From positions 1 to 32,599 of the forward strand of contig JAAURD010000030.1 in assembly GCA_012034075.1 (NCBI GenBank): DNA of 32,599 nucleotides, in the 5' to 3' direction. The notes beneath the pieces were generated by a model that was not told where the DNA came from, made no database searches, and was given only the letters and a program-made list of their open reading frames with translations. The DNA comes from Chloroflexaceae bacterium (GTDB lineage: Bacteria > Chloroflexota > Chloroflexia > Chloroflexales > Chloroflexaceae). A program made the position numbers and the translations under genes. Positions 5,301 through 31,619 of the stretch are shown here, piece after piece; position 1 is the stretch's first letter, and the number at the start of each line of letters is the position of its first letter.

Positions 5301-8186
5301 ATGAGCACGACTTCTGCATCTCCCTCAGAACCACCGATGGAACTGCCAGCGGCTCACTTCCCCCCGGTGAAACGGCTCAGCCTGGGTATCAAAGCCAATG
5401 CTATTATTGTGGCTGGGCTGGGTATCTTGCTGGTCATACTGCTCTTCCTTATCAACAACCGCATCGAGCAGTTGATTATCCAGGTTGGTCAGCGCGAGAT
5501 AGATGAAGTTATCACTGCTACCAGCATCAGGTTTGCCGAAATCAGCCAGGCCTTGCTTGAAGAGACCCGTTTATTAACCACCATGCCTGGGATGATCAAG
5601 GACTCTCGTTTTCAGCCCAACGCCTTTTGGCAATCGAACTGCCTCGCAGACCTCTATCCCCCTATCGCTCTGTTTGATCGGTCAGGCCAATGGGTTTTCG
5701 ATCTCGATCATACTTCACCATCGGGACTTACCCCAGATGCTGAAGCTGCATTAATCGCCGAGGTGTTGCAAGGACAGGAACGCCTATTAGCAATCCAAAA
5801 TGAACAAACTGCTCAACTCTGCCTGGTAGCAGCAGCACCCATTCGTGATACTGCGACTGATAAAGTTCTTGGCGGGATCCTCAATGCGAGAGCCATCGAT
5901 ACCGATATGCTCCAGTCAATCAATCAGGCATTCCCTCATGTTGGCATGTATCTGGTGCATGATGATGATGTCCTTGCCTTTGCGGTATCCGAAAGAGAAA
6001 GCAAATCACTTCCTGCTGCTCTACCACCGAATATTGGGTATGATCCCCCAGTTTCGGCAACCGCGGAGCATGCTTATACTGATCATGACCATGCGGATAA
6101 CAGCATATCAGATACGTTCAATGCCCATGACCCGGCACATATGGATCACGAAGCCATCTCGATCCTGCTCGATCCGGAAGTGCTGGCACAGACCAGTGCT
6201 GGTCAGCAGTGGATAACGGATCGTGCTATCACTCTTCATGGTGTTCCCCATATGTATGCTCAGATACCCCTCATCATCAACGGGAAGACCGAAGCTAGTC
6301 TGGGTCTCTTTGTGGGGTTAGCAGATATTGTGGCGTTTCAGCAACAGATGGTGATTAACCTGACCATGCTCTTTATCATCCTGGGCCTGATTGTTATGGT
6401 GATGATGTCTGGTGCAATTCACTATAGCGTGGTTCGTCCACTCCACCAGTTAAAAGCTGCCGTTTCCAGGATGAGCGAGGGCGATTACGATCAGCGGGTT
6501 ACAATCAACAGCGGTGATGAAATAGGCCAGCTGGGACATACAGTTAATACGATGGCAAGGCGTCTGGGGTATATGTATATAACTCTTGAACAACAGGTAG
6601 TAGAGCGCACCATTCAGTTGAAGCAAGCATTGGCTGAAGCGAGAGAAGCACGGGCCGCGGCTGAAGCGGCCAACAACCTCAAATCGCGTTTTATTGCCAA
6701 CATGTCTCATGAACTGCGTACCCCGCTCAACTCGATTATCAATTTTACGCGCATTGTAAGTAGCGGCTTACGTGGTCCCGTCACGTCAGAGCAGGTGGAC
6801 TATCTCAATCGCGTCCATGCCAGTGGGGAACACCTTCTTGGTCTGATCAACGATATTCTTGACATTGCCAAAATTGAGGCTGGACGGATGGAACTGCACA
6901 AAGAAACCATCGTCTATGGAGAGATGGTCCGCAGTACTCTGTCTACGGCCATGGGCCTGACCCGAGACAAGCCGATTGAACTGTTCCATGAGATTGCGCC
7001 CCATATACCCCATATTGAGGCCGACCATACACGCGTCCGCCAGATTTTGCTGAATCTGCTCTCCAACGCTGCTAAATTTACCGATGAAGGCAGCATTACG
7101 GTGCGTGTGTGGCAAGAGGATCAATCGATTATCACCAGTGTGAGCGATACCGGTATTGGCATTCCCGCCGATCAGCTTGAAACGATTTTTGAAGAGTTTC
7201 GGCAGGCCGATGAAGGGAGTGATCGCAGCTATCAAGGCACTGGTCTCGGCCTGTCGATCTGTCAGCGGTTAGTAACGATGCATGGTGGTCGGCTCTGGGT
7301 CGAGAGCGAAGTTGGTGTTGGTTCAACATTTACCTTCAGTCTCCCAATAAACGTTGTTGCAACGGTTACAACTGGTTCGGAAGTATCCTCTTTGACTATC
7401 ATCCCAGAACAGACAACTGCTCATTTGATCATCGTGATTGAGGATGATCCCTCAGCAATCGAAATTGTCGCCAACTACCTGCAACCTGATGGGTATACCA
7501 TCTATGGTGTGACAGACAGCCGCAAAGCGCTCGAAGTCATCCGCAAGGCACAGCCCATCGCCATCATTCTCGATATTCTCATGCCCCATCGTGATGGGTG
7601 GGAATTGCTGGTCGAACTCAAAGAGGCCCATGATTTGCGACACATTCCGGTGATTTGCTACACCATTGTCGATAAGCCTGCGCTTGGTCTGTCGTTGGGC
7701 GCCAGTGCCTATCTGATCAAGCCGATCCAGAAGGAAATGTTGCGCAAGACCGTGCAGAGTCTGGTTGGGCATCAAGGACATATTCTGGTCATTGATGATG
7801 ATCCTGCTGTGCGTGATATTGTACCCCGTTACCTGGGCAAAAATGGCTATTCTGTAGTCACTGCTGCCGACGGTAAGGAGGGTATGGACAAGATTGCAAC
7901 CAGCAAGCCGGATTTGGTTATTCTCGACCTGATGATGCCCGTAATGGACGGTTTTGCTGTGCTGAATGCACTTGATGCGACCCCCGAATATCGCACTATT
8001 CCGGTGCTAGTGTTGACCGCCCGTGACCTCACCAGTCAGGAACGACAGATGCTCACCGAGCGAGTCCAGGGCTTGCTGGCAAAATCAACCTATACGATTG
8101 AACAAATGTTCGATAACGTAAGAACCATTCTTCGTCATTCTCGGATAAACCGAGCAGAAAAAACCGAAGAGTTGGATGCAGATTAG
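5301..8186 (+). CDS. Hybrid sensor histidine kinase with two C-terminal receiver domains
   Basis: A 961-residue membrane kinase. Order: cytoplasmic N-terminus; membrane segment about 33-52; extracytoplasmic sensor about 53-350, Cache-like (strands such as IALFDRSGQWVFDL and LCLVAAAPI); membrane segment about 351-374; HAMP 375-430; coiled linker; HisKA with the phosphorylated His at H470 in MSHELRTPL; HATPase with N588 in LLSNAAKF, DTGIGIP and GTGLGLSI; then two receiver domains with phosphate-accepting D758 (ILDILMP, K807) and D876 (ILDLMMP, K928). The sensor contains a His-rich stretch at residues 257-283 that could bind metal. It follows the single-domain regulator on the same strand, suggesting a multistep phosphorelay. 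The signal is unknown. Confidence 0.93.
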   Translation: MSTTSASPSEPPMELPAAHFPPVKRLSLGIKANAIIVAGLGILLVILLFLINNRIEQLIIQVGQREIDEVITATSIRFAEISQALLEETRLLTTMPGMIKDSRFQPNAFWQSNCLADLYPPIALFDRSGQWVFDLDHTSPSGLTPDAEAALIAEVLQGQERLLAIQNEQTAQLCLVAAAPIRDTATDKVLGGILNARAIDTDMLQSINQAFPHVGMYLVHDDDVLAFAVSERESKSLPAALPPNIGYDPPVSATAEHAYTDHDHADNSISDTFNAHDPAHMDHEAISILLDPEVLAQTSAGQQWITDRAITLHGVPHMYAQIPLIINGKTEASLGLFVGLADIVAFQQQMVINLTMLFIILGLIVMVMMSGAIHYSVVRPLHQLKAAVSRMSEGDYDQRVTINSGDEIGQLGHTVNTMARRLGYMYITLEQQVVERTIQLKQALAEAREARAAAEAANNLKSRFIANMSHELRTPLNSIINFTRIVSSGLRGPVTSEQVDYLNRVHASGEHLLGLINDILDIAKIEAGRMELHKETIVYGEMVRSTLSTAMGLTRDKPIELFHEIAPHIPHIEADHTRVRQILLNLLSNAAKFTDEGSITVRVWQEDQSIITSVSDTGIGIPADQLETIFEEFRQADEGSDRSYQGTGLGLSICQRLVTMHGGRLWVESEVGVGSTFTFSLPINVVATVTTGSEVSSLTIIPEQTTAHLIIVIEDDPSAIEIVANYLQPDGYTIYGVTDSRKALEVIRKAQPIAIILDILMPHRDGWELLVELKEAHDLRHIPVICYTIVDKPALGLSLGASAYLIKPIQKEMLRKTVQSLVGHQGHILVIDDDPAVRDIVPRYLGKNGYSVVTAADGKEGMDKIATSKPDLVILDLMMPVMDGFAVLNALDATPEYRTIPVLVLTARDLTSQERQMLTERVQGLLAKSTYTIEQMFDNVRTILRHSRINRAEKTEELDAD

Positions 8187-27190: not shown

Positions 27191-27234
27191 GCGTAGCACG
27201 CTGCGCCGCTGCGGATGGCGGTGATGCTATGGCA
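27191..27234 (+). repeat. Dispersed repeat, degenerate copy
   Basis: GCGTAGC, then CTGCGCCGCTGCGGATG and GTGAT..TATGGCA, parallel the element at 28608-28659 base for base apart from a deleted left arm and scattered changes. It lies in the 159-bp gap before the Clp_N-M50 gene. Confidence 0.5.
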
Positions 27235-27312: not shown

Positions 27313-28539
27313 ATGAACATACCAGAACTCCCGTACACGCCTAGAGCACGCAAAATACTCGATGTTGCCCTACGTGAAGCAACCCTGCGTCCCACCAATA
27401 GCGTCAACCCCGATCATCTGCTGCTTGCCCTGCTGCAGGTACGCAAGCACTATGCTGTTACCGTGTTAGAGGCCATGGGCGTTGATATCAATCATCTCTA
27501 CGAGTCGCTTACCATTCAATTGCCACCATCAGGGACATCCGCTCAGTCATTTCCGCCCCTGGGCGAAGACCTGGAACGGGTGTTGCGTTATGCGCTGAAA
27601 GAGGCCACGCATCTTGGCGATACCCAGATCGATGCCCATCATCTGTTGCTGGGGTTGCTGTACGAAGAGCAGGGCCGTGCCGCTACCATGTTGCAGTCGG
27701 CCGGCCTGACGCTTTACGATGTGCGCCAGCAGGTGCTGGCCCAGGAAAAACCGGCCAAACGGCAGCAACGCCAATCGGGGCAGCTACCACTGCCCAGCCC
27801 ATACTTTTTTGTGCCTCTGGGTGCAATGATTATCAGTGGCATCCTGCTCTGGATGGGGATGGATTCTGCATGGATGCGTCCGCTGGTGATGATCTTTGTG
27901 ATTGGCGGGTGGATTACATCGCTCTGTATTCACGAGTTTGGGCATGCTCTGACGGCCTATCTGGGTGGCGATCAATCGGTGCGTGATGCTGGCTATCTCA
28001 CCTTGAATCCGTTGCGCTATACCCACCCTGTTTTGAGCATTTTGCTGCCGCTGCTCTTTCTCTTTATGGGTGGCATTGGTCTGCCCGGTGGTGCGGTGTA
28101 TATTAACCCGTATGCCCTGAAAAACGACCTCTGGCGCAGCTTTGTATCAGCTGCTGGCCCATTGGGCACTATTCTGTTTACTATCTGTATTGTCTGGCCC
28201 TTTTTTCTCGATTGGACCGCTTTTGCTACCGAAGCCAATATTGGTTTCTGGTCTGCGCTGGCCTTTCTGTGCTTTTTGCAGGTTACGGCACTCTTTTTTA
28301 ACCTGATCCCCTTGCCGCCGCTCGATGGTTTTGGCATTGTTGCCCCGTGGTTGCCCGAAACCATTCGCATGCAGGCGTATCGTTTTGGCAATGTGATCTT
28401 GCTGTTGCTCATTTTTCTGCTCTGGCAGGGTGGCCCAGTTACCGATGCCTTCTGGACTGAGATTATCCGTGTGGTTGATTTGCTCAATATTCCACTTCCG
28501 CTCGTTGGCGTAGCCATGGACTACTTCCGTATCTTTTAA
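27313..28539 (+). CDS. Clp N-terminal domain fused to an M50-type membrane metalloprotease
   Basis: A 408-residue fusion. Residues about 5-145 contain two Clp_N repeats (YTPRARKILDVALREATLRPTNSVNPDHLLLALL, then LERVLRYALKEATHLGDTQIDAHHLLLGLL), the adaptor and substrate-binding module normally attached to ClpA/ClpC ATPases. Residues about 160-405 form a membrane protease of the site-2 protease class: HEFGH (207-211) within a hydrophobic segment, then NLIPLPPLDGF (330-340), whose D338 is the expected third zinc ligand. There are about 5-6 membrane segments. No AAA+ domain is present. No ribosome-binding site precedes the ATG. Both halves are recognised with confidence; what the Clp_N half delivers to the protease is inference. 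Confidence 0.87.
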   Translation: MNIPELPYTPRARKILDVALREATLRPTNSVNPDHLLLALLQVRKHYAVTVLEAMGVDINHLYESLTIQLPPSGTSAQSFPPLGEDLERVLRYALKEATHLGDTQIDAHHLLLGLLYEEQGRAATMLQSAGLTLYDVRQQVLAQEKPAKRQQRQSGQLPLPSPYFFVPLGAMIISGILLWMGMDSAWMRPLVMIFVIGGWITSLCIHEFGHALTAYLGGDQSVRDAGYLTLNPLRYTHPVLSILLPLLFLFMGGIGLPGGAVYINPYALKNDLWRSFVSAAGPLGTILFTICIVWPFFLDWTAFATEANIGFWSALAFLCFLQVTALFFNLIPLPPLDGFGIVAPWLPETIRMQAYRFGNVILLLLIFLLWQGGPVTDAFWTEIIRVVDLLNIPLPLVGVAMDYFRIF

Positions 28540-28607
28540 GCCCATCGGATGGGCACCAGACCGAGCCGTTGGCGGATTGTCAGCCTGTTCTTATGTTCCC
28601 TGAATAT

Positions 28608-28659
28608 GCGTAGCGGCGCAACATACTGCGCCGCTACGGATGTTTGTGATAAGATGGCA
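28608..28659 (+). repeat. Dispersed palindromic repeat (REP-like), full copy
   Basis: A perfect 12-bp inverted repeat CGTAGCGGCGCA (28609-28620) with its complement (28627-28638) and a 6-nt loop, then GATGTTTGTGAT and AAGATGGCAA. It lies between the convergent Clp_N-M50 gene and the gene at 28680, and could also stop transcription. Confidence 0.6.
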
Positions 28660-29289: not shown

Positions 29290-31619
29290 ATGAGACGTTC
29301 ATTTCGTACCCGACAACGTTCCCGCACAAGCCATCACCGAGCACCCGGCGCGGTCGTTCCGCCGCTCCAACCTTTGGCGGGCCAACGCTCAAAGCGGGCC
29401 AACGCCCGGCGCGGTCGCCAGAGCCGCAGCCTGCGTCGTTCGCTGGTGCTGGCGGTGGCTGGGGCAACCCTGTCGCTGCTGCTGCTGCTGAGCTGGAAAG
29501 CCTGGCACAGCTATCAGTTGGCCCAGTCCATTTCCTTTGATCTGCAGACGCTTGAGACGCTGGTGGCACAGCCGACCACGCTTGATGGTATGACGCTCGA
29601 TACCATCGATCTGTTGCTGAGCCGTATGGCAACGCAGTCGCAGGCGCTGCAACACGAGGCGGCGCCGTTTCTGTGGGTGATGGGCGGATTGGGCTGGTTG
29701 CCCGCCTATGGCGCGGATCTGGCAGCCGTGCCGCCCCTGCTCGATACGGCCAGCAGTCTGGCGCAGGCGCTGGATAACGCCGCGCCCCTGGCCCTGACGC
29801 TGCTTACGGCTCAGCAGCAGATAGGCGGCTTCGACCCGTCGCTCATTGATCAGCTGGTGGCGGCGCGTTCGCGGCTGGTTCAGGCCCAGCGAGCGGTTAC
29901 CCAGGCGCAGGTCACCTGGCAGCGTATCGAGGGTACCCAGCTATCAGACTGGCTGCAACCGCGGCTTCAGCGCATCGAGACGCTCTTGCCCGTGCTCGAT
30001 ACAGCGATCAACACGGCCCTGGTGGCCAGTGATACGGCGGTGGCACTGCAACCGCTGCTGCGTGAACCGGCCCTGGACGGCCAGGCGATGAGCAGTATGC
30101 TCACCGAACGCCTGGGGACGGCCCGGCCACAGCTTGCGGCTGCCCAGCAGCAGCTCACGCGGTGATCGCCCAATGGCAGGCCATCGACCTGACCGCGCTA
30201 CCGCCGACGCTCCAGCAGCAGAGCGAGCACCTGCTGCCCATGCTCACCTTTGCCCGCGATAGCCTGGACCTTGCGCTCGTACTGCCCGATATGCTTGGCG
30301 TCAGCGAGCGGCGCGACTACCTCTTTATTGCGCAGAACGAGGACGAACGCCGTGCCACCGGTGGCTTTATCAGTGCGGTTGGTACGATGAGCTTTGAGCA
30401 GGGTCAACTCACGGCGCTGACGGTTGATCATACCGATGTGTTTACGGGTGGGCCGTATCCGCCGCCGCCGCTGCCATTTCAACGCTATATGGGTATTCAG
30501 CTCTGGGTTTTTCGCGATGGCAACTGGTCGCCGGATGTTCCAACCGCTGCCCGCACGCTGTTGCAGCTCTATCAGATTGAGCATGGCACGCGACCGTCCC
30601 ATCTGCTGGCATTCAATCAGACGGCGTTGCGACTGCTGTTGCAGGCGACTGGTCCGGTTGTGGTAGAAGGGCAGAGTACACCCGTGTCGGCGACAACCCT
30701 GTCGGCGTATATCCGCACCGAATATGACCGCAGCATCGAGACGGGAGTCCATCGTAAAGCATTTCTTGGCCCACTGCTGCAAGCAATTATCGCGCGGATC
30801 CAGCACGAGAGCGCCAGTATCGATCTGCTGACGCTAGCGACCGCGCTGAAGCAGGCGCTGGATGAGCGCCATCTGCTCTTGTATACGCCAGACCGTGACG
30901 CTGCCCGTGCTCTTGCCAACCTTGGTTGGGATGGTGCCGTGCACCCCGGTGATCAGGACTTTCTGCTGCTGGTGGATTCGAATATGGGCTATAGCAAAGC
31001 CAATGTCTATATCGATCAGGCCATCACCTACACGGTGGATCTGCGCAACCCGACGATGCCGACTGCGATGCTGGCGATCCAGCATCACCATACGCTTGCC
31101 AGTGCTACGCCGCAGTTCTGCCCGCACTGGTCCGAGCAGCCGCTGCCCGCTGATATGCCATCACGCTATGCGGCCTTGACCGACCGTTGTTATTGGAACG
31201 CGTTGCGGGTTTTCACGCCACCGGGCAGCACCTTGATTGATGCGACCAGTCAACCGCCAGCGGGGAGCTGGGGTCTGCCTGATTTGGATGATGGCGTGGT
31301 GACGAGTGCTGCTGGTGAGCGAGCAACGCAGGTCTTTGCGACGTTTCTGGTGGTGCCGCCGGGCGGTGTGCGCGAAACGGTGCTGCGTTATCAGCTGCCA
31401 GCGGGTGTGCTGCGGGCGCAGGCTGATGGGTGGCACTATCAACTGAAACTGCAGAAGCAGGCCGGCCAGGAAGCGATACCGGTCCAGGTGGAGGTGCTCT
31501 TGCCGGCAACGGCGCAGGTGCTGGATACGGGTGGTTTGGGCGCGGTGAAAGACGGCAACCAGCTGCAAGGCACCCTGCAACTGAACCACGATCAGACACT
31601 GGACGTCAGCTTTCGTTGA
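29290..31619 (+). CDS. DUF4012 membrane protein, split by a frameshift
   Basis: Two frames make one DUF4012-family protein of about 776 residues. The first (ATG 29290 to TGA 30165) has a basic start, one membrane segment (LVLAVAGATLSLLLLLSWKAW) and long helical repeats rich in Gln, Ala and Leu. The second (from about 30162 to 31619) has the family core: RRDYLFIAQNEDERRATGGFISAVG, then FTGGPYPPPPLPFQRY and later LLLVDSNMGYSKANVY. The join reads CGG TGA where CGG GTG would continue in frame, so loss of one G (30161-30162) is the simple explanation; a GTGA stop-start overlap as real translational coupling is the alternative. DUF4012 proteins are common in Chloroflexota and Actinobacteria. Their role is unknown, though a cell-surface location is expected. 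Confidence 0.82.

Follow-up and report, generated by a model that had tools for sequence, protein, structure and literature searches.

A ClpC-type N-domain and a site-2 protease core joined in a single polypeptide of Chloroflexota

The site-2 proteases (S2Ps) described to date carry PDZ domains (group I), CBS domains (group III) or no extra domain (PMC10202637). How these enzymes choose their substrates is an open question, and PDZ and CBS are the accessory domains that the sources cited here describe (PMC10202637, PMC11486902). The PDZ tandem of the group I enzyme RseP is thought to filter substrates (PMC10202637). In SpoIVFB, which like MJ0392 (mjS2P) belongs to group III, the substrate is contacted by the interdomain linker, and the CBS domain is believed to aid in positioning it there (PMC11486902). 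The N-domain of the unfoldase ClpC offers two kinds of binding surface. One is a pair of pockets for phosphoarginine, to which E32 and E106 are crucial; the other, distinct from the pockets, is a hydrophobic groove that takes unfolded segments and cyclic peptides (PMC12583610). Clp_N also occurs apart from an unfoldase in mycobacterial ClpC2, an autorepressor and ligand sponge (PMC10030653) whose description includes neither a protease nor a membrane domain.

Here we describe a gene that joins Clp_N to an M50 protease. It lies on a contig of a Chloroflexaceae bacterium, analysed as one window of 32,599 nucleotides. The open reading frame, which starts with ATG and ends with TAA, matches Clp_N (PF02861, E=1.7e-14) and Peptidase_M50 (PF02163, E=8.1e-9), both above the curated cut-offs. 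These were the sole families matched in Pfam, which found no AAA+ module in the frame. A PDB sequence search aligned residues 8-142/143 with ClpC N-domains. An earlier note on this DNA had proposed such an unfoldase-free join, with Clp_N in the N-terminal residues and the two protease motifs where Table 1 lists them; the Pfam and PDB searches bore out the architecture, with a ClpC-type Clp_N over residues of about 8-145, and the motif positions were correct. We found no paper pairing Clp_N and M50 domains in the open-access literature. The protein is thus a member of a known enzyme class with a new domain architecture, its accessory domain being one for which we found no report in that literature. 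With the N-domain of a Clp unfoldase in the accessory slot, two proteolysis systems meet in one chain, and the fusion offers a testable system with one surface and one active site.

Table 1 Features of the Clp_N-M50 fusion gene, in window coordinates.
Feature	Position	Strand	Basis
Clp_N-M50 fusion gene, 408 aa	27313..28539	+	ORF; Pfam Clp_N and Peptidase_M50; 32 homologues
Clp_N repeat 1, residues about 8-70	27334..27522	+	Alignment to ClpC N-domains
Clp_N repeat 2, residues about 84-144	27562..27744	+	Best Pfam stretch 94-142; ClpC comparison
Basic linker, residues 146-162 (KPAKRQQRQ...), predicted cytosolic	27748..27798	+	Charge count, 32 homologues; low pLDDT 147-152
M50/site-2 protease membrane core, residues 163-375, six predicted TM helices	27799..28437	+	AF2 models; PDB profile matches
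Zinc motif HEFGH, residues 207-211	27931..27945	+	H207, E208 and H211 invariant, 32/32
NLIPLPPLDGF motif, residues 330-340, with third zinc ligand D338	28300..28332	+	N330, P335 and D338 invariant, 32/32

The same architecture was found at full length in six further genomes of the order (47-51% identity), and 32 of 32 non-redundant fusions from across Chloroflexota match both Clp_N and M50 in Pfam; the residue counts given below for the fusions come from an alignment of these 32 proteins. Such recurrence answers the concern, raised in the same note, that a frame error had merged two separate genes, and it equally speaks against an assembly join: seven genomes of the order encode the fusion at full length and the distinct proteins number 32, so that such an artefact is ruled out. 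The M50 core was present in 7 of 61 genomes of the order, each time inside a fusion frame, and at the loci of M50-only relatives in our tree no Clp_N open reading frame was detected. Purifying selection maintains both halves: in five close pairs Clp_N had a dN/dS of 0.09-0.33 and M50 one of 0.11-0.26. Two homologues (L128 and L129) lie in frames of 695 and 654 aa with more than 200 residues ahead of Clp_N, representing either an extension or an open GC-rich frame.

Fusions occur in Chloroflexales, Herpetosiphonaceae, Chloroflexaceae, soil Chloroflexi, Dormibacterota (Dormibacteria-like), Anaerolineae and Thermoflexus, a list that includes the results of a named-genome scan. In a sample of 400 genomes of the phylum, where fusions were called from query coverage and open-frame length, the M50 core was detected in 39 genomes and the fusion in 19. 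Matches in 296 Actinomycetota and 194 Cyanobacteriota genomes were M50-only and no fusion was seen, at six to nine candidates scored per genome, a depth at which a rare fusion could be missed. The core without Clp_N is also found in Verrucomicrobiota, Planctomycetota, Armatimonadota, Pseudomonadota and many Anaerolineae, as well as in Actinomycetota. Some cyanobacterial proteins carry C-terminal TPR repeats on this core (L044 and L073 by Pfam, L055 and L075 by eye); they share with the fusion the M50 core subfamily and a protein-interaction module, which in the fusion is an N-terminal Clp_N instead. Since Clp_N, TPR repeats or neither may be attached, the core looks like a site-2 protease that accepts various protein-binding modules. 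In the M50 tree, 26 fusions formed one strong clade (SH-aLRT 99), with a few long-branched Anaerolineae fusions placed elsewhere. Mapping the fusion state on the tree gave five changes, and a single origin, with all fusions constrained to one clade, was not rejected (p-AU 0.369). The window protein was left out of the tree by the duplicate filter, and its placement is taken from its close relatives (L002-L007).

The catalytic residues of the M50 core are intact, with H207, E208, H211 and D338 invariant in all 32 fusions and the HExxH motif within a predicted helix (residues 185-217). The M50 profile matches seven PDB sequences, all of them site-2 proteases (RseP, MJ0392, SpoIVFB and aq_1964), with RseP chains as the best match. 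A Foldseek search of the PDB with an M50-only model (pLDDT 93.1) returned no significant match and no S2P; membership of the core in the site-2 protease fold is thus assigned by sequence motifs and profiles. With SpoIVFB and MJ0392, whose structures are both matched by the profile, the fusion shares the M50 core, an HExxH motif with a downstream Asp ligand, six predicted transmembrane helices (PMC11486902) and, by prediction, a cytosolic accessory domain. It differs from them in that this domain is an N-terminal Clp_N and not a C-terminal CBS domain, and in having no sporulation context. With RseP it shares the M50 catalytic motifs, but the fusion has its N-terminal Clp_N and no matched PDZ domain. 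Neither PDZ nor CBS domains were matched by Pfam in any of the 32 fusions.

The full-length AlphaFold2 model, built from the 32-row alignment, reached a pLDDT of 91.4, and the sole segment below 50 was residues 147-152 of the linker. This linker, which measures about 17 residues in the window protein and about 16 to 53 among members, is net positive ahead of the first transmembrane helix in nearly all of them. Because of this basic stretch and the hydrophobic segments that follow, Clp_N is predicted by the positive-inside rule to be cytosolic, and it most likely lies next to the active site. We infer a topology in which the N-terminus would be inside, TM1 would run from inside to outside and HEFGH would sit on TM2, leaving the active site accessible from the cytosolic half of the membrane.

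The N-terminus is a bona fide ClpC-type N-domain with two Clp_N repeats. Its model matched ClpC N-domain structures in Foldseek with a target-normalised TM of up to 0.90, the phosphoarginine complex 5hbn being among the matches, and the sequence comparison with a ClpC N-domain gave an E value of about 1e-23. The fusion nevertheless departs from ClpC in lacking the AAA+ module and in its binding surfaces. Both phosphoarginine-site glutamates are kept in 17 of 17 ClpC N-domains from related genomes; in the fusions the glutamate of site 1 is present in 11 of 32 and missing in 21 (D34 in the window protein), and that of site 2 is present in none (H109 in the window protein). In many members residue 95, aligned to L92 of the groove in Mtb ClpC1, is N or H instead of hydrophobic. 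Repeat 2 is the better conserved half (pairwise identity 0.43, versus 0.33 for repeat 1) and bears a signature of its own, D107 (28/32), Y117 (25/32) and Y135 (26/32); the ClpC residues at these positions are Gly, Arg and Glu. With the glutamates lost and repeat 2 conserved around this signature, Clp_N has been retained and re-specialised, and a role as phosphoarginine reader is unlikely. The idea that the domain would read the marks known from ClpC finds no support in this comparison.

Taken together, we propose that the protein is a zinc-dependent intramembrane protease whose cytosolic Clp_N docks a partner or substrate through the new repeat-2 surface and so selects or gates cleavage, a reading to which we give an even chance. 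Tethered beside the active-site cleft, Clp_N would dock either a partner protein or, where a membrane protein is the substrate, its cytosolic part, and would in this way select or gate cleavage. For docking it would use a lineage-specific surface of repeat 2 (D107, Y117 and Y135) and not the phosphoarginine site of ClpC. This proposal draws on the analogy with the RseP PDZ tandem and the SpoIVFB interdomain linker outlined above. If Clp_N does select substrates in the fusion, Clp_N domains can act as receptors without an unfoldase.

A more specific possibility is that Clp_N is a receptor for proteins that are damaged, bear a degron or are marked with phosphoarginine, or for the adaptors ClpS or McsB, and feeds them to the M50 domain, triggering regulated intramembrane proteolysis. 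The ClpC-type identity of the domain speaks for it, since adaptors and unfolded segments are ligands of Clp N-domains (PMC12583610), and ClpS is encoded by three Chloroflexales fusion genomes, the source genome included. Against it stand the lost glutamates and the N or H that many members have at residue 95. A search for ClpS in 22 fusion genomes also failed to find it in 19, which rules it out as a general partner of the fusion. Nor do the gene neighbourhoods point to stress signalling. Around the window fusion lie genes for a methyltransferase and a DUF4012 protein, unassigned open reading frames and a gene for a probable polysaccharide flippase, whose Pfam match falls slightly short of the cut-off. 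Neighbours differ across clades, and only the Dormibacteria-like clade (L152-L160, family f25) has a fully conserved neighbourhood, of fixed order cysS-rlmB-fusion-yacP-pyk and made up of housekeeping genes, in which the fusion sits between rlmB and the gene of a YacP-like NYN nuclease. No linkage to a stress operon, an anti-sigma gene, clpP or clpC was seen among the fusion gene neighbours, and since no partner gene is conserved across clades, the substrate cannot be named from context. A sensor of damaged proteins or degrons, which we consider unlikely, would be a special case of docking, its phosphoarginine and ClpS versions being weakened. The earlier suggestion of direct delivery to a membrane protease therefore stands in part: the protein is a single chain free of AAA+ with a Clp_N predicted to be cytosolic, but neither an intact pair of phosphoarginine glutamates nor a general ClpS partner nor a conserved anti-sigma or stress neighbour was found.

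Alternatively, Clp_N could serve as a decoy or docking copy of the ClpC N-domain. It might recruit ClpCP or partners of ClpC to the membrane, so that ClpCP receives the fragments that M50 releases by cleavage, or it might sequester ClpC ligands in the way that ClpC2 sequesters cyclomarin A. The source genome and its relatives encode full-length ClpC-type proteins as separate genes, ClpC2 provides a precedent for an AAA+-free Clp_N protein that binds ClpC ligands (PMC10030653), and RseA fragments pass from RseP to ClpXP (PMC10202637). Yet the fusions depart from the ClpC of related genomes in the site glutamates and in parts of the groove, making shared ligands less likely, and neither clpC nor clpP was seen linked to the fusion gene; we regard this coupling as doubtful. 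Least probable, in our view, is that Clp_N rests against the membrane domain of its own chain, serving as a passive lid or for oligomerisation and not as a receptor of substrates or adaptors: the conserved repeat-2 residues unlike those of ClpC could face the M50 domain, and the linker of the window protein is short, but the range of linker lengths among members suggests a flexible tether and not a fixed interface.

In a broader and quite speculative reading, Clp_N-directed intramembrane proteases would operate independently of ATP throughout Chloroflexota; the repurposed ClpC N-domain would capture cytosolic degrons or stretches of membrane proteins that have unfolded and deliver them directly to the S2P. 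We hold this to be improbable; if true, it would constitute a quality-control or signalling route that needs no unfoldase.

Further features were observed in the window. The DUF4012 protein is encoded downstream of the fusion (27313-28539) at 30162-31619, beyond a 300-aa open reading frame without a Pfam match. A hybrid histidine kinase of 961 aa with a HAMP domain and two receiver domains is encoded at 5301-8186. Finally, a palindromic GC-rich, REP-like element (TGCGCCGCTACGGATG and its inverse) lies on both sides of the fusion gene, at 27202-27217 and 28605-28642; it has three matches in the window, versus 0.01 expected, and seven in the genome with one mismatch allowed.
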